A stretch of 43,453 nt of DNA, from positions 1 to 43,453 of the IMG/VR virus record IMGVR_UViG_3300037963_007019; one strand, given 5' to 3'. The notes beneath the pieces were generated by a model that was not told the DNA's origin, searched no databases, and saw only the letters and a program-made list of their open reading frames with translations. The translations under genes and the position numbers were made by a program. This document shows, piece by piece, positions 8,655 through 30,388 of this stretch; position 1 is the first letter of the stretch, and every line of letters begins with the position of its first letter. Source of the DNA: a virus.

Positions 8655-8813
8655 ATGCCCAAAAGGGAAGTAGAATTATTTACCACGGATAGTGATTTCT
8701 ATCCTCTAGAAAATAGTAAGAAAAAAAGAGCATTTTTATTAGTTTTAACTTGGTTAATGACTACTGGACTATTGATTTTTATACCATACGTATTCTTAAA
8801 ATTATCTACTTAG
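8655..8813 (+). CDS. Small single-pass membrane protein
   Basis: A 52-residue protein with a charged, polar N-terminal half (residues 1-27, ending SKKKR) and one strongly hydrophobic C-terminal helix (about 28-50). The frame is open upstream to 8559, but the ATG at 8655 is set by the late octamer five bases before it, and the longer version would overlap the transglycosylase gene. The basic patch before the helix suggests the N-terminus stays in the cytoplasm. A role in lysis or host membrane takeover is possible but not shown. Its last eight bases overlap the end of the cyclase gene on the other strand. Confidence 0.6.
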   Translation: MPKREVELFTTDSDFYPLENSKKKRAFLLVLTWLMTTGLLIFIPYVFLKLST

Positions 8814-10857
8814 TAGTAAGTCTGTATATAGCATCCCACCCTTCACCTGGATCATTCTCTCGTAAATGATCTATTCTATTCATCATCATAACATAATATT
8901 CTTTTAATTCAGGGTATTTTTTACTATTTTTTACCCCCATTTTAATAGCTTCACCCCATACTCTATTTTTATAATAGTTAATAAACAGTTCATGATCAGA
9001 AGTATCTCCTCCGTGGTTAGCTAAACCAGTGTCGTTTAGTATGGTATATATTTTTATACCTTCTTTCTTTCCCTTAACAGCTATTTTATCAAGTTCCACA
9101 AAATTAAAAACTTCCTCTATACCTTCTATAGTCTTTTCACCTAGAAGTATTCCAACGTTATAATTTTTAGTTTGACCTTCTAATCTAGCAGCTAAATTAA
9201 CAGCATCACCTAAACAGGTATAGTCAAATCTCTGAGTAGATCCCATATTACCTACTACTACGTCACCTGAATTAATACCTATACCCATTTTTAAGATCAT
9301 AGAGTCATCATCTAATTCATTATTAACTTTTGATAATAAATTAAACATATCCAAAGCACATCTAATGCTATTGACTCTATGCTCCTTATCATCTAGAGGG
9401 GCGTTCCAAAATGCCATTAAAGCATCACCTATAAACTTATCAACAGTACCTTGATACTTAATTACACTTCCAGTCATAGGTGTTAAATATTCATTAATTA
9501 GCTTAGTTAAGCCCTGTGGATTTGATTTAAACTTTTCGCTTATAGATGTAAAGTCTCTTAAGTCACTAAACAGTATAGATAACTCTTTAGTATCTCCACC
9601 TAGTTGAAGCTTAGAAGGATCTTTTTGTAGTAGTTTTACTATTGAAGGTGCTAGATAATGCTCGAATTGACCTTTAATTTGTCTTTTTGATTTATTTTCT
9701 TGAACGAATCTAACAAATGTTGCGAATGACCAAGTTACAAATATTGTAAAAATAGGCCATGTAAAATCATATAACAGATTTGATTCAAACAGTTTATTAC
9801 CTATATATGGTAAGAAAAATATACTAACTAAAATAGTACATAAACTCCATATATAAGGTAGCCATAATGCAGTTATTATTATTAATGCACTTACTGCAGC
9901 TGCTACCATTAACTCATGTATAACAAATTCATCTTGTCTTTCTAATCTAGATTCATCTATCATCATTTGAAGAGTAGTAGCATGTACAAACTGACTATAT
10001 TTTGTTCCTAGAGCTGTAGGTACTGTATTAGTAAGACCTTCAGCTGCTGGAGATATAAAAACTATCTTGTCCTGAACTTTACTCCAGTCTTCATCTATAA
10101 ATGAAATGGTGGGTATATTATACTTGTAATTTAACCATACTCTAGAATTAAAATCTGTTTTTATTGGTTCCATCCCGTAAACTCTTAAAGCTAGTATTCC
10201 AGCTTCATCAGCTTTTACTTGATAAGAATCTTCACCTCCAAATAATCTAAGTACTTCTAAAGCTAAAGTTGGGTAATATTTACCCTTAATTTGTATTACT
10301 AACGGCATTCTTCTAACTACACCATCTAGCTCTGGAGCTGTAGCTAACATACCTACACCTGCTGCAGACTCGCCTAATTTTTTAACAGGTCCTATAGCTT
10401 CAGGATAATCAAATAAGTAGTTGTCTATATCGGATCCAATAACTGATATACCTCGTGGTACAGGAGTACCTTTACCTTTTGTACTAGCAGATTGACCAAG
10501 TACAACTGGTACTTGCTGCATAATATCTATAAGATAGTCATCTTGTTTTAATCTATCTTCCTCAGCATAAAGTATAGGTAGTACAACCAACGCCGCGCCA
10601 CTTTCATAAGCTTTTACTACGCTATCTGCAATTATATTTCTAGGCCATGGCCATTGACCATTTTTATCTAAACTAGCTTCATCTATTTCTACTATACAAA
10701 CACTATCAGAATCTACCTTTTCTTGCCCACGCTGATAAAAGTCAAATGATTTTAATCTTGCTGTCTCTACAAAAAACGGATCATATGTTCTTATAATAAG
10801 AAGAAATATAGTAAAAAGTAGGCATATTATGTAATTTTTAAAATTTAAGATTTTCAT
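8806..10857 (-). CDS. CHASE2-domain class III adenylate cyclase
   Basis: A 683-residue membrane receptor cyclase. Domain order: N-terminal membrane helix (about 8-23), extracytoplasmic CHASE2 sensor (about 28-310), three membrane helices (about 313-335, 338-353, 366-386), catalytic domain (about 425-610) and a C-terminal tail. The active site is intact: metal ligands D432 (FSDLRDFT) and D478 (IGDALMAF), purine-selecting K474 and T547, and transition-state N554 and R558 (NLAARLE). The K/T pair is typical of ATP-using class IIIb cyclases. This should make cAMP in response to an envelope signal. The start overlaps the FecR gene by four bases (ATGA). A full-length receptor cyclase in a phage is striking. 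Confidence 0.93.
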   Translation of the reverse strand: MKILNFKNYIICLLFTIFLLIIRTYDPFFVETARLKSFDFYQRGQEKVDSDSVCIVEIDEASLDKNGQWPWPRNIIADSVVKAYESGAALVVLPILYAEEDRLKQDDYLIDIMQQVPVVLGQSASTKGKGTPVPRGISVIGSDIDNYLFDYPEAIGPVKKLGESAAGVGMLATAPELDGVVRRMPLVIQIKGKYYPTLALEVLRLFGGEDSYQVKADEAGILALRVYGMEPIKTDFNSRVWLNYKYNIPTISFIDEDWSKVQDKIVFISPAAEGLTNTVPTALGTKYSQFVHATTLQMMIDESRLERQDEFVIHELMVAAAVSALIIITALWLPYIWSLCTILVSIFFLPYIGNKLFESNLLYDFTWPIFTIFVTWSFATFVRFVQENKSKRQIKGQFEHYLAPSIVKLLQKDPSKLQLGGDTKELSILFSDLRDFTSISEKFKSNPQGLTKLINEYLTPMTGSVIKYQGTVDKFIGDALMAFWNAPLDDKEHRVNSIRCALDMFNLLSKVNNELDDDSMILKMGIGINSGDVVVGNMGSTQRFDYTCLGDAVNLAARLEGQTKNYNVGILLGEKTIEGIEEVFNFVELDKIAVKGKKEGIKIYTILNDTGLANHGGDTSDHELFINYYKNRVWGEAIKMGVKNSKKYPELKEYYVMMMNRIDHLRENDPGEGWDAIYRLTTK

Positions 10858-11732
10858 TGTTCAATATTAAAGATCACACTATTACCTCCATTTAGTTTAT
10901 AAACTCCTAAACCTCCTCCTTGATTATGGTTTATAGTAGCATTAGTGTCTTTTTCTAATCTAAGTGATAATACAGAGCCTTGATCGCTTCTTCTCTCTAA
11001 ACTTACACGTCCATCTTGCAATAAATTAAATATAGAAGGTATAGTTCTCTTTGTCTTTTCTTCTACGTTCTCATTATCAGCCATTCTCTGCTCATTTTCA
11101 TTATTCCTATCTCGCTGCTCTTCTTGCGATATACTAGTTACTCTTGCTCCTTTAACAGGTTTACTAGGTGGATTTATATTATTATCAACCCTAGTAACTT
11201 GATATGCTTGATTTAATAAAACTGTACCACCTGCATTACTAACCTCAATAGAACCAACGTACATATTACCGTTAGCATCTATTGATGGTAAGAGCTTAAA
11301 TGTTGATCTTCCAGCAGCGTCTATTGTCATAGTAAAATCAGTTCCTCTAACTGATACAGAAGCAGTAGGTGACGATATCTTTACATTCTTCCTACTATTT
11401 TTAGCTATTAATCCGGATGAATATCTTAATGAACCTAATTTACCTTTTATAGATAGCTTTCCTGTTTTAGATTTATCATCGTAAACAAACTCATCAATTT
11501 TTAACTTTGAATATTCAGATAGAGCTACTTTAGTATTATCTACGAATACTACTTTTATAGTACCATTTAACGTCTCAAGATCATCATTCATTTTAACTGG
11601 AGTCTTTAACTCAGTTAAAATTTTATCTTGTTCTCTAGTTATTTGAGCTCGTTGAGTTTGTTTTTCAACTTCGCCTATTGCAAAACTACGGCTGCTGACC
11701 GCCATTAGAAGGGCCATCGACACCATGACCAT
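10854..11732 (-). CDS. Secreted FecR-domain protein
   Basis: The frame is open from 11858, but the in-frame ATG at 11732 (others at 11726, 11717 and 11705) starts a plausible signal peptide ending SRSFA and avoids a long overlap with the curlin-like gene. That gives 292 residues. After the signal peptide, a FecR-type beta domain includes the diagnostic SPTASVSVRGTDFTM segment (about residues 120-134) and a QAYQVTRV strand. A charged linker rich in Asn, Glu and Arg and a beta-like C-terminus follow. In bacteria, FecR-domain genes often sit next to CHASE2-cyclase genes, as here. It probably works in the periplasm with the cyclase sensor. The exact start is uncertain. Confidence 0.8.
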   Translation of the reverse strand: MVMVSMALLMAVSSRSFAIGEVEKQTQRAQITREQDKILTELKTPVKMNDDLETLNGTIKVVFVDNTKVALSEYSKLKIDEFVYDDKSKTGKLSIKGKLGSLRYSSGLIAKNSRKNVKISSPTASVSVRGTDFTMTIDAAGRSTFKLLPSIDANGNMYVGSIEVSNAGGTVLLNQAYQVTRVDNNINPPSKPVKGARVTSISQEEQRDRNNENEQRMADNENVEEKTKRTIPSIFNLLQDGRVSLERRSDQGSVLSLRLEKDTNATINHNQGGGLGVYKLNGGNSVIFNIEQ

Positions 11733-12453
11733 TTGTAACTTCAACGCTAAGCAAGTTAGTTTCGCCGAGATATGTCGGAGCTGTTCCATCGGATTGTAGT
11801 ATAGTATAGTTATTATCACTTCCAGAAACTGAGAGATCAATGTTGTTAGGGTCACCACCTAATTGAACTATATCTAGTCTGTTATTACTACCAAATATAT
11901 CAACTAACTGATTATTACCAATACCACCAGTTTGACCTTCCTGATATGAATTAACTATATTTTCATTTCCTAGAATAGTGTAATCATTATTTACATTATC
12001 GCTATCATATATTTGAAAAAGCATATTGTTATTGTTACCTTCAATACTCAAGTCTAACGTTGAGCTATTAGTAAAAGCAGGAGTAACTATATCATCATCA
12101 GCAGCAACATTTATCACATTATTGTTTCCAGCAATATCAAGTAAAAACGTATTTTCATTTCCTTCTATTACAGTTTCTATATCGTTTCCTGTACCAGTTA
12201 TTAAGAAGTCAAAAAGCTCTCCGTTACCAACATTATTAAGATCTAAAATGTTTTCATCACCAACAAATACTAAATCATAGTCTTTATTTTCCCCCTGTAA
12301 TCTCGATCTTTTATCAGTATCACCAATTTGGTTAGAAGCACCAAACTGTATAATATCAAAGGTACCAGTATTACCTGATTGATCTAAATAGATTTCATTA
12401 TTAGCAGTAGCTAATAACGACGATAACATAAGCGCAAAAATAGTTTTCTTCAT
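11686..12453 (-). CDS. Curlin-like secreted solenoid protein (CsgA-like)
   Basis: A 255-residue protein with a signal peptide (MKKTIFALMLSSLLATA) and a body of G-x-x-N turns separated by short beta strands. Turn glycines at 54, 65, 76, 87, 98 and 109 are exactly 11 residues apart, and others (27/38, 177/188/199) keep the same step. Two 11-residue strand-turn units equal the 22-23-residue curlin repeat, so a stacked beta-solenoid or amyloid fibre is likely. The first unit keeps Gln and Asn at curlin-like places (QFGASNQ). It lies directly after csgG, the exporter of curlins. It is more acidic and Asn-rich than E. coli CsgA, and the classic S-x5-Q-x-G repeat is degenerate. Confidence 0.75.
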   Translation of the reverse strand: MKKTIFALMLSSLLATANNEIYLDQSGNTGTFDIIQFGASNQIGDTDKRSRLQGENKDYDLVFVGDENILDLNNVGNGELFDFLITGTGNDIETVIEGNENTFLLDIAGNNNVINVAADDDIVTPAFTNSSTLDLSIEGNNNNMLFQIYDSDNVNNDYTILGNENIVNSYQEGQTGGIGNNQLVDIFGSNNRLDIVQLGGDPNNIDLSVSGSDNNYTILQSDGTAPTYLGETNLLSVEVTNGHGVDGPSNGGQQP

Positions 12454-12477: not shown

Positions 12478-13278
12478 CTATTTACTCTCTTTAAACTTCC
12501 AATATTCCTCATCCTTACCCTTGTGAATAATATCGATAACAGCTTTATCTAGTGCAGCTCTTACACAAGTAGAAACTAATTCATTCTTTGCATAACCTAT
12601 TTCTGCTTCAGCGGGTAAAGTATCCATATCAAAGAATTTGAACAACGTGCCTGATATCTTGGTCGATATAATAGTCTTAGAAGAAGTAGTAGCTAATAGT
12701 ACTTCGCCTGTCATAGTACTTACTATTCTTAAAGCAATAGTAACTGTATCTTGCCTATATTCATCCGTCAACCCTACGCCTAAATATGCAGCTCCCGCGC
12801 CTCCAGTTATGTTATTAACATCATAATCTAATATACCACCAAAAGCTAAAACACCTGCGTATTTTTGCGGTGGTAGGGCTACTGGCTCTTGATCAAAAGA
12901 TTGTCTAGTTTGATTTACTAAAGATCTTTCCCTTAAAACACTTTCTTGTTCAGCTCTTTCTAAAACTTTAAACCAACCAGTAGCCATTAACGACTCCATC
13001 AAATAAGCTTCTGCACCTTGAGTAACAGCTGATGAGAAAGTTGCGTAATTATCTGAAGTTGACCGCTTACCAGTTAAATCTCTAAACTTACCTACTCCAA
13101 TATAAATTTCTGGGCCATCAAGCTTAGGTACACTTTTTAACTCTTCTATAAGAGGTGTAGTATTAATTTTTGGTAAAGTAAAGTCAGGTTTAGTCTTACT
13201 ATTATGAGTAATAGTATTACAGCTAGAACATATACTTATTAAAGAAAGTATAGTTAAAATTTTACTCACCTTCAGCAT
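12478..13278 (-). CDS. csgG: Curli export channel CsgG
   Basis: A 266-residue CsgG-family outer-membrane lipoprotein. The signal peptide ends in a lipobox-like SICSSC with C20 as the likely lipidated residue. The core aligns along its length with E. coli CsgG: IYIGVGKFRDLTG, FSSAVTQGA, GWFKVLERAEQESVLRER, LAFGGILDYD, TGGAGAAYLGVG, LRIVSTMTGEVL, SSKTIIS and EIGYAKNELV. CsgG forms a nine-subunit diffusion channel that secretes curlins. The phenylalanine of the constriction loop (TFSS for NFST in E. coli) is kept. It overlaps csgF by 17 bases, so the two are probably co-translated. Confidence 0.95.
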   Translation of the reverse strand: MLKVSKILTILSLISICSSCNTITHNSKTKPDFTLPKINTTPLIEELKSVPKLDGPEIYIGVGKFRDLTGKRSTSDNYATFSSAVTQGAEAYLMESLMATGWFKVLERAEQESVLRERSLVNQTRQSFDQEPVALPPQKYAGVLAFGGILDYDVNNITGGAGAAYLGVGLTDEYRQDTVTIALRIVSTMTGEVLLATTSSKTIISTKISGTLFKFFDMDTLPAEAEIGYAKNELVSTCVRAALDKAVIDIIHKGKDEEYWKFKESK

Positions 13279-13735
13279 CTTCTCCTAATCCAGTATCTGG
13301 TAATGATAAAGTACCAATTGGAATAGTAATAGTTGTAACTTCTCCATCAGTACTGTATACAGATAGAGTAATAGTATCACCGATCTTACCCCAAGTAACT
13401 GTATTACCATCTAACGTAAACTGTCCTGCGTCTGCTCCAGCTTCAGCAAACAACTGCTCAGTAACTTGTTTAGAGAGTTCAGAATATATTCTTGTTTGAA
13501 GATTCGAAAGAAAAGCATTGATAGGCTCTCTTTGTTCTAAAAGACCTAGCTGTAACTCTAGAGATCTTAATTCATCTCTGATAGACTTCTTTCTATTATA
13601 GCGCATATTATTAAGATTAATTTGATGCGCGCTATAGCCTATACCGCTAAAGGTTGGAGATTTAAATTTAAAAACCAAACCGTCACCTAAAACTTGCGTA
13701 GATAACAGTATTAATACTAAAAAGATTAGCTTCAT
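13262..13735 (-). CDS. csgF: Curli assembly factor CsgF
   Basis: A 157-residue protein with a signal peptide (residues 1-17) followed by a mature N-terminus beginning DGLVFKFKSPTFSG. This matches the CsgF segment (FQF.NPNFGG) that plugs into the CsgG channel. A middle helical part (about 50-95) and a C-terminal beta domain (about 105-148, ITLSVYSTDGEVTTI) follow the CsgF plan. The tail is acidic. In E. coli, CsgF forms a second constriction on CsgG and helps anchor nucleation at the cell surface. CsgE, CsgB and CsgC are not in this window. A degenerate late octamer (AGTAAATA, 13743-13750) precedes it. Confidence 0.88.
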   Translation of the reverse strand: MKLIFLVLILLSTQVLGDGLVFKFKSPTFSGIGYSAHQINLNNMRYNRKKSIRDELRSLELQLGLLEQREPINAFLSNLQTRIYSELSKQVTEQLFAEAGADAGQFTLDGNTVTWGKIGDTITLSVYSTDGEVTTITIPIGTLSLPDTGLGEDAEGE

Positions 13736-14043
13736 ACGTTTTTATTTACTCCCTTCTTTGGATTTTTCATTACTTTTTTTTCAACTACTATGCTTATTTT
13801 ATCTTTATCCTTCTCTTCAGCCTCTTCTAAAATAAGATTTATCTTCGTCATTAATCTAATCATATCATTATCTAACATTCTAACCTTATCTATAAGATTA
13901 ATAACTATAGACATAGCGTCATCTATAACCGGTTTTATTTCTCTAGTTACCCATTTCCATATATAAAAAACAAAATAACCTAATCCACAAGCTGCCATTA
14001 TTGGAAACCCGTATTTACTTATACCTTCAATTATATTTTCCAT
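13732..14043 (-). CDS. Small membrane protein with coiled tail, holin-like
   Basis: A 103-residue protein with an N-terminal segment (about 1-13, GISKYGFPI), one membrane helix (about 13-30), a helical and charged cytoplasmic part (about 35-80) and a basic C-terminus. The KYGFPI entry and short helix-coil plan resemble the BhlA/UviB-type holin family, but the match is by eye. It is a paralogue of the gene just upstream (shared FPI.A......F.....W/F pattern). Its start overlaps the upstream stop and its end overlaps csgF by four bases, so it is part of the curli transcription unit. Confidence 0.65.
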   Translation of the reverse strand: MENIIEGISKYGFPIMAACGLGYFVFYIWKWVTREIKPVIDDAMSIVINLIDKVRMLDNDMIRLMTKINLILEEAEEKDKDKISIVVEKKVMKNPKKGVNKNV

Positions 14044-14324
14044 TAGTCTTTTCTCGCGTCCTCCTTTCCTTCGCTTGCAGCTAATCTTTCTATATTAGGC
14101 TTCTTACCAAAAGCACAAGATATCAAAGTATCAATCTTTACTATATCATTATTCATAGTATCTATTCTATTCACAATACCTTTTATTAAACCACACAATC
14201 CTTTAATAGAACTAGTTAACTCGCTAAGTATAAATTTTAGAATTATAAATATAAAGAATCCACAAGCTACTGCACCAGCTATAGGGAATCCAACTTTTTC
14301 AATTATTGTAAAGAATCCTTCCAT
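14043..14324 (-). CDS. Small membrane protein, paralogue of the next gene
   Basis: A 93-residue protein with KVGFPI at 10-15, a long hydrophobic helix (about 14-33) and a helical C-terminal part with heptad-like spacing (about 40-68), then a charged end. The layout and the GFPI motif match the downstream gene, so the two are tandem duplicates that have diverged. A variant late octamer (ACTAAATA, 14332-14339) lies seven bases before the ATG. It heads the unit containing csgF, csgG, the curlin-like gene, FecR and cyclase. It could be a holin or a membrane adaptor for the export system. Confidence 0.65.
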   Translation of the reverse strand: MEGFFTIIEKVGFPIAGAVACGFFIFIILKFILSELTSSIKGLCGLIKGIVNRIDTMNNDIVKIDTLISCAFGKKPNIERLAASEGKEDARKD

Positions 14325-17898: not shown

Positions 17899-17906
17899 TA
17901 TTTATA
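17899..17906 (-). promoter_or_regulatory. Late promoter octamer TATAAATA
   Basis: A perfect T4 late octamer on the minus strand, five bases before the ATG at 17893. Confidence 0.7.
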
Positions 17907-18533: not shown

Positions 18534-18539
18534 TATTTA

Positions 18540-18547
18540 TATTTATC
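18540..18547 (-). promoter_or_regulatory. Late promoter octamer for the dismutase gene
   Basis: Minus-strand GATAAATA ends six bases before the ATG at 18533. A second, perfect copy (TATAAATA, 18534-18541) abuts the ATG. The same double arrangement occurs before the gene at 30389. Confidence 0.65.
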
Positions 18548-18616: not shown

Positions 18617-20146
18617 TTAGAAATACACAGACTGCGAAGCAGGAGTAAACGCTGTACCAAGCCCCTGACATAATACCACATGGTAGTACAGAGAAGCCCC
18701 AAAGATGTTATCAACAACCCCGTAACGAGTAAGTAACCCGACGCGAGGAGCGAAATCATTAGGACCAATAGTTCTCTGAACCATGACCGGAATGTAAGGA
18801 CAATAAATGATACCAGTATCGTAGAACTCAGGACCCTTGTAACCGAGAAGAGCATACTCAATAGTCTGAGTATTAGCTGCTCCATTAACGGTGTACTGAG
18901 CTTGCTGAGTGTAAACGTTGGAGTTTTGAACCTCCGTACGAGTATCACGGTAAACGTTGAATCTTCCACCAAGTGAACCAACCTTTGCAATACCAACAGG
19001 CTGAGTGTTAACGTCACCTTGTACAGGTACCCACTGGAATTCAGGGAGCATCTCAAGGATGGCGCAAACACGAGGAGTTGCTACTATAAAGTTAGCAGAT
19101 CCACGTCTGTTACGTACAGCAATACGATTGGACTCGATAATTAATCTCTGATAGAAGTCGCGGTTTCTCTCAACCATCCAACGTCCGTCAGCAGAAGCTG
19201 GGGACCAGATGGAGTAACCGGTTCCAAATCCCTGCCCAAGAGCGGCTTGGATCATTCTCATGAGCATCTCACGGTCGATCTCAGCTTGGATCTCGTATGA
19301 CATAGCATTCGTGATCTCAGCATCAATATCGATACCGTTCATGTTCTTAAGGTCTTGCTCAAGCTCGACGGACCAACGTGCGCCAAGGCGGCGTGTGCCG
19401 GCCTCAACAGCGGTCTTCTCGAACTTAACCTCAACCTGAGGAATGTTTCCAGTAATCTCAAAAGCAGAAAGAATCTGAGCAACACCTCTGTCCTGATCGG
19501 CGAATGACCAGTCAGTACCTCCAGAGAGTCTCTGGGAGGACGAACCAGTAAACCTGGTATCAAGTAATTGATAACCAAGCTCGTCGTCATTAAGTCCACC
19601 AACGCCAGAATAATCTGACGCGACATCACCTGCACGTCCATCAGGCGCCGGAATATTACCGGGACCAGTGTTCGAGTCGCGATCCGTAGTACCATCAGTT
19701 CCTGTACCTAAGGCAGAGGACTGGTAGGCATAACGAAGCGCAAATGCAAGTCCAACAGGACCTGACATAGGCTGGACACCAACGATTTCATTGGTGATAA
19801 GCTCAGGGAACGTACGACGAATCATCGGAATAAGCACTTTTGGCAGACGTGCATCACCAGTGGCGTAAGTGTCTTGGGAATTTACTTGCCCCACGTCTCC
19901 GATAGGGTTGTAGACTCCGCCAACACTTGCACCGTTTCCGAAAGCACCACCAGTTGTTGCACCACCGGAGTTATCCTCCTCAATGCACCATCTCTCTTGG
20001 TTTTCCAAGAGAACAGCAGTGTTCAAACGAGTGTGATCGTCTTCAATAGGCTTAATACTATCAGAAGTATAGTCAAGAACAGGTGCCCACTTTTCAAGCA
20101 GTGCATCGGCTCTATCTCTATCGATAAATGATTGTGGTTTGTTCAT
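18617..20146 (-). CDS. gp23: Major capsid protein gp23
   Basis: A 509-residue T4-type major capsid protein. Recognisable parts include the IPMIRRTFPELITNEIVGVQPMSGP segment (about residues 109-133), LGARWSVELEQDLKN, EIDREML and the C-terminal VGLLTRYGVV. An N-terminal delta region with a possible gp21 cut after I-E-E at residue 57 precedes the mature shell protein. The frame is open to 20188, but the ATG at 20146 has a strong Shine-Dalgarno (AAGGA). G+C is clearly higher than in its neighbours (28 of 60 in the line at 19321), as expected from codon selection in the most abundant protein. A strong terminator follows. Confidence 0.97.
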   Translation of the reverse strand: MNKPQSFIDRDRADALLEKWAPVLDYTSDSIKPIEDDHTRLNTAVLLENQERWCIEEDNSGGATTGGAFGNGASVGGVYNPIGDVGQVNSQDTYATGDARLPKVLIPMIRRTFPELITNEIVGVQPMSGPVGLAFALRYAYQSSALGTGTDGTTDRDSNTGPGNIPAPDGRAGDVASDYSGVGGLNDDELGYQLLDTRFTGSSSQRLSGGTDWSFADQDRGVAQILSAFEITGNIPQVEVKFEKTAVEAGTRRLGARWSVELEQDLKNMNGIDIDAEITNAMSYEIQAEIDREMLMRMIQAALGQGFGTGYSIWSPASADGRWMVERNRDFYQRLIIESNRIAVRNRRGSANFIVATPRVCAILEMLPEFQWVPVQGDVNTQPVGIAKVGSLGGRFNVYRDTRTEVQNSNVYTQQAQYTVNGAANTQTIEYALLGYKGPEFYDTGIIYCPYIPVMVQRTIGPNDFAPRVGLLTRYGVVDNIFGASLYYHVVLCQGLGTAFTPASQSVYF

Positions 20147-27683: not shown

Positions 27684-27691
27684 TATTTATA
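27684..27691 (-). promoter_or_regulatory. Late promoter octamer TATAAATA
   Basis: A perfect octamer on the minus strand eight bases before the GTG at 27675, directly downstream of a terminator. The spacing is larger than at other genes. Confidence 0.6.
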
Positions 27692-28654: not shown

Positions 28655-28662
28655 TATTTATA
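28655..28662 (-). promoter_or_regulatory. Late promoter octamer TATAAATA (divergent pair)
   Basis: A perfect octamer five bases before the ATG at 28649, divergent from the terminase promoter at 28668-28675. Confidence 0.7.
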
Positions 28663-30379: not shown

Positions 30380-30382
30380 ATA
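30375..30382 (+). promoter_or_regulatory. Late promoter octamers before the tube-like gene
   Basis: AATAAATA at 30375-30382 lies six bases before the ATG at 30389. A second, perfect TATAAATA (30381-30388) touches the ATG. The first overlaps the gp17 stop. Confidence 0.65.
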
Positions 30383-30388
30383 TAAATA

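Follow-up and report, generated by a model that had tools for sequence, protein, structure and literature searches.

Introduction

Pelagiphages of both the myo- and the podophage type are known to carry a curli-type module, in the order HK-csgF-csgG-csgA/B-FecR-(csgA/B)-AC, whose genes were traced in phylogenetic trees to Alphaproteobacteria, with additional transfer between viral families (Wittmers et al., 2022, PMC9599517). The presence of csgF and csgG was reported in pelagimyophages (Zaragoza-Solas et al., 2020, PMC7029224), and these two genes were described for phage Melnitz (PMC9004378). The cyclase gene, AC, is annotated in HTVC008M (AGE60353) and in Melnitz (QZI94833), both of which possess the same cluster. 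The word CHASE2 does not occur in PMC9599517, and we found no other report of this AC in the open-licence literature. In bacteria, a FecR-domain gene, smc02177, lies beside cyaD1 in S. meliloti (PMC5498481), and clusters made of FecR, PDE, TPR and CHASE2 AC genes are found in Campylobacterota (PMC9239204).

Here, we analyse an AC gene found in a viral DNA stretch of 43,453 nucleotides (IMG/VR record IMGVR_UViG_3300037963_007019, hereafter the window). Judged from its sequence and that of its neighbours, this gene is real and intact, and extends the published module by one more member and one more phage lineage.

Results

The cyclase gene closes a curli-type cluster

The AC gene comes at the end of a run of seven genes on one strand (window 14324-8806, minus strand), in the order TM1-TM2-csgF-csgG-curlin-like-FecR-AC (Table 1). 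Genes for csgF, csgG, a CsgA/B-like protein, FecR and AC thus succeed each other as in the pelagiphage module. A sequence-only reading of the window had drawn attention to the cyclase and said nothing of the curli/FecR genes immediately upstream. The idea of a lone surprise in a phage was not borne out, as AC is one component of a curli module already published for phages.

Table 1. Genes of the curli-FecR-AC cluster in the window.
Feature	Position	Strand	Evidence
TM1, 93-aa single-TM protein, TM2 paralogue, first gene of the cluster	14043..14324	-	phrog_18771
TM2, 103-aa single-TM protein, TM1 paralogue	13732..14043	-	phrog_18771
CsgF curli assembly factor	13262..13735	-	Pfam PF10614, E 2.7e-13
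CsgG outer-membrane curli export pore	12478..13278	-	Pfam PF03783, E 2.2e-46
Curlin-like repeat protein, candidate CsgA/B analogue	11686..12453	-	phmmer homology to HTVC008M 'curlin-associated protein'
FecR-domain protein, signal-peptide-like N-terminus	10854..11858	-	Pfam PF04773, E 1e-07; phrog_37870
CHASE2-class III nucleotide cyclase (AC), 683 aa	8806..10857	-	Pfam, residues, alignment, AlphaFold2, Foldseek

No significant Pfam match was obtained for the curlin-like protein. The listed GTG start of the FecR gene is probably placed too far upstream, as it creates a 173-nt overlap with the curlin-like gene. The small genes ahead of csgF are named 'histidine kinase' (HK) in PMC9599517; neither TM1 nor TM2 matched a HisKA or HATPase kinase domain in Pfam or NCBIfam. 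Their layout, one TM followed by a helix, could suit a small holin-like membrane protein, which we offer as a guess.

A scan of viral contigs yielded 51 relatives of the AC locus, making 53 loci with HTVC008M and Melnitz. In 41 of these, csgG, FecR and AC co-occur; most of the others are truncated by contig ends, and one (L053) has 8 kb of upstream sequence without csgG or FecR. The FecR gene sits ahead of AC in nearly all phage relatives, and AC stays beside the cluster in lineages of both myo- and podophages. Some members of the HTVC008M-like group differ in gene order near AC, and the podophage versions of AC end earlier, aligning without the C-terminal tail.

The window comes from a T4-like lineage far removed from pelagimyophages

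The window derives from a marine T4-like phage. Its major head protein and large terminase (TerL) match PHROGs and its core genes match HTVC008M, so that the phage origin assumed at the outset was confirmed. These matches are distant: TerL is 33-35% identical to those of HTVC008M and Melnitz, and the major head protein 28% identical to that of HTVC008M. Identity of TerL reaches 76-77% with other long marine contigs, and its best match in the phage database was Sinorhizobium phage phiM9 (39.6%).

Searches for a host were not informative. The tmRNA of a relative gave short end matches only, none specific, and the tRNAs of a relative had matches in 288 of 289 genomes, again none specific. An Rfam search of the window gave no match. 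The late-promoter motif TATAAATA occurs 11 times in the window for 12.4 expected, a count which gives no evidence by itself. T4 late promoters lie directly upstream of start codons, and five of the 11 occurrences are so placed relative to a start codon of their own strand, at 17899-17906, 18534-18541, 27684-27691, 28655-28662 (-) and 30381-30388 (+). The major head protein region (window 19001-20000) has a G+C content of 50%, compared to about 32% elsewhere.

AC is predicted to be a complete CHASE2 receptor-type cyclase

The AC reading frame begins with ATG and is complete. Residues 18-325 correspond to CHASE2 (Pfam PF05226, E 3.4e-39), residues 423-606 to the Guanylate_cyc catalytic domain (PF00211, E 8.4e-23), and residues 610-683 to a C-terminal helical tail. 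Four hydrophobic helices were predicted from sequence, at about 4-22, 316-334, 335-353 and 367-385, with a fifth, weaker peak at 80-98 within CHASE2. The resulting architecture, in which an N-terminal TM helix is followed by a periplasmic CHASE2, three TM helices and the catalytic domain, is the usual layout of CHASE2 receptors, with one helix ahead of the sensor and three behind. The AlphaFold2 model (mean pLDDT 87.3, pTM 0.68) has long helices at 6-25, 310-332, 335-358 and 366-398. The four membrane helices and full CHASE2 sensor announced by the sequence-only reading were therefore recovered by hydrophobicity, Pfam and AlphaFold2.

The six catalytic residues were also found where they had been placed, namely the two metal-binding aspartates (D432 and D478), K474 and T547, and the transition-state residues N554 and R558. 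When 42 homologues from phages and bacteria were aligned, all 42 shared D432, K474, D478 and R558, so that neither metal aspartate is replaced in any of them, and 41 had N554. The position of T547 is more variable: 21 homologues have Thr there, 20 have Ser and one has Asp. Catalytic residues are unchanged across phage ACs spanning 33-95% identity.

Comparison with characterised cyclases supported the same assignment. Using Foldseek, the catalytic part of AC matched CyaB (3r5g, TM 0.86), CyaC (1wc1, TM 0.85) and Cya2 (2w01, TM 0.84, all of target). The pair formed by K474 and T547 is the Lys and Thr purine-specifying pair expected for class IIIb-type adenylyl specificity. Because K474, T547, N554 and R558 all align with their counterparts in the photoactivated adenylyl cyclase OaPAC, ATP would be the expected substrate.

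For the closest phage AC pairs, to which the estimate was restricted as deeper pairs were near saturation and were set aside, dN/dS was 0.076-0.089 over the whole gene and 0.013-0.034 over the catalytic domain. By these ratios, the AC gene is under strong purifying selection. Homology and selection together rule out an open reading frame arisen by chance or a gene fragment, and with the reading frame and the Pfam domains they uphold the initial view of a complete CHASE2-class III cyclase. We conclude that AC probably works as a cyclase.

Two observations concern the divergence of phage ACs. In the cyclases of cultured Melnitz (L002:8932-10980) and of locus L028 (L028:8001-10022), Asp takes the place of T547 and Ser that of N554, which sets them apart from the other aligned relatives; their activity or substrate specificity may have shifted. 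The two form a pair in the tree but differ greatly in branch length, a possible sign of domain swapping. Separately, the CHASE2 part of the window AC is nearly identical to that of locus L004 (dN 0.002) and its catalytic domain to that of locus L005 (dN 0.005), which suggests recombination within the gene between close phages.

cNMP-binding proteins are rare in SAR11-family genomes

No cNMP-binding domain was detected in eight phage records, that is the window (a 43-kb fragment), HTVC008M, Melnitz and five other long phage contigs; the same search returned 2-16 domain proteins in each of three bacterial genomes. The SAR11 family was taken to be the one containing a genome with a 16S sequence that matches four SAR11 probes, of which 441R is confirmed as such (PMC5604061). 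Among 117 genomes of this family, for which completeness is not given, a cNMP-binding domain was present in 5 and absent from 112. Single absences mean little in such a set, but the pattern of a family nearly devoid of cNMP-binding proteins is strong, and it makes a CRP-type hijack unlikely in SAR11, though such a hijack may apply in the window's own host. The proposal that the phage AC rewires host physiology received no support from the phage records or from the SAR11-family genomes.

A class III cyclase above cut-off was found in 2 of the 117 genomes (loci L160 and L161, in genomes G413 and G449). Both group with the phage ACs in the tree, L161 on a long branch, and the tail of a FecR gene lies just ahead of L160. 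They may be phage DNA inside host assemblies; given their position among the phage sequences, they are probably not native SAR11 host enzymes.

The FecR-AC pair is found in bacteria, away from csgF and csgG

Of 80 bacterial loci with a CHASE2 cyclase, 21 have a FecR gene at most 800 bp away, in line with the pairing known from S. meliloti (PMC5498481) and Campylobacterota (PMC9239204), and some of the FecR proteins at such loci are large surface proteins with cadherin/RTX or TbpB-type barrel domains. None of the 80 loci contained csgF or csgG, no csgF was found in 20 AC-bearing bacterial genomes, and neither FecR nor AC was found within several kilobases of three alphaproteobacterial csgF loci. 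A bacterial csg operon with FecR or AC, which could have been the source of the phage module, was thus not found at these loci or in these genomes. Given the origin in Alphaproteobacteria reported by Wittmers et al. (PMC9599517), a source with both may simply fall outside our sample. From the 80 AC loci, 20 genomes and three csgF loci, the pairing of FecR with AC looks bacterial, while a link of this pair to csgFG was seen, in this sample, in phages only. In a quick tree, phage ACs were split from 19 bacterial ACs with full support; the tree being midpoint-rooted, this assigns them to one side of a branch and leaves a clade unproven.

Discussion

We propose, with a probability of about 0.6, that AC would be a working receptor-type adenylate cyclase forming the sensing end of the phage's own curli-type surface system. 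During infection, CsgG and CsgF would export a curli-like fibre. A periplasmic FecR protein would report export or envelope state to CHASE2, as the gene pairing suggests, and AC, as a head-to-tail dimer, would then convert ATP to cAMP in the host cytoplasm. Class III cyclases act as head-to-tail dimers. The FecR step is weakened by the situation in S. meliloti, where the neighbouring FecR protein is dispensable for signal perception (PMC5498481). An extended form of the proposal, a self-contained circuit in which FecR and CHASE2 would read phage curli export and the resulting cAMP would act on a non-canonical reader in CRP-less hosts, seems to us distinctly unlikely.

What the cyclase product would do in the cell bears on other explanations. 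If AC works, its cAMP might act via a CRP-type regulator of the host, and so hijack transcription as the sequence-only reading had proposed. The window lies outside the pelagimyophages, the terminases closest to its own are those of rhizobial T4-like phages (39.6%), and several cNMP-binding proteins are present in many alphaproteobacteria (14-16 in two of the genomes searched), all of which would suit a host equipped with such a regulator. However, the tmRNA and the tRNAs of a relative pointed to no specific host, and HTVC008M keeps the same module although its SAR11-type hosts are nearly all without the receptor, so that a CRP target cannot explain in general why the module is retained. We therefore regard this hijack as unlikely. 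The initial interpretation holds for an intact cyclase with a periplasmic CHASE2 and an ATP-type residue pair, and finds no support as to the isolated character of the gene or host rewiring.

AC could also make a cyclic nucleotide other than cAMP, either cGMP or the cCMP/cUMP known from Pycsar, and play a role in defence or counter-defence. PADLOC PycC models do match its catalytic domain (best 2.4e-27) and the guanylyl cyclase Cya2 is a close structural match, but these models pick up class III cyclases in general, owing to the shared fold, no Pycsar effector gene is present among the seven cluster genes, and K474 with T547 specify a purine as in adenylyl cyclases such as OaPAC. This makes a different product very improbable. 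Least probable of all, in our opinion, is that AC is a passenger which travels with the curli genes and whose activity is not needed. The shorter podophage ACs, lacking the tail in alignments, and the variable order of the genes flanking AC in part of the HTVC008M-like group would be in keeping with such relaxed retention, whereas the very low dN/dS, catalytic residues invariant over phage proteins of 33-95% identity, and the maintenance of AC next to the cluster across myo- and podophage lineages all argue against it.

The proposal of a working receptor-type cyclase therefore remains our preferred one. To the published data, the analysis adds that the phage AC is, by its domains, a CHASE2 receptor-type cyclase with nearly all catalytic residues conserved; that the curli-FecR-AC module is, on gene content and order, also present in a T4-like lineage distant from pelagimyophages; and that FecR-AC looks like a bacterial pair, which in the sampled bacteria did not occur next to csgFG. 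A published, unexplained marine phage gene is thereby linked to a defined receptor type, and a puzzle appears, as a cAMP maker that looks catalytically intact is kept by phages though SAR11 hosts nearly always lack a known cAMP receptor.

Among known systems, CyaB of P. aeruginosa and CyaC of Arthrospira resemble AC in their catalytic fold (TM 0.85-0.86 of target, 32-34% identity); the 3r5g and 1wc1 structures comprise catalytic domains only, and the CHASE2 half of AC is unmatched there. The S. meliloti cyclases CyaD1, CyaD2 and CyaK (PMC5498481) are, as in the phage, CHASE2-type receptor ACs with a FecR-domain gene nearby, but they work with the Crp-type regulator Clr, encoded next door, whereas no receptor gene was found in the phages. 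The Campylobacterota clusters (PMC9239204) likewise unite a CHASE2 AC and a FecR-domain protein, together with PDE and TPR; the phage cluster differs in having csgF, csgG and curlin-like genes, with no PDE noticed alongside. The closest system is the pelagiphage T8SS/curli module (PMC9599517) of HTVC008M and Melnitz, which shares gene set and order with the window. Its ACs are 41% (HTVC008M) and 37.5% (Melnitz) identical to the window AC over 88-96%, and both phages carry a second curlin gene between FecR and AC, which the window lacks.
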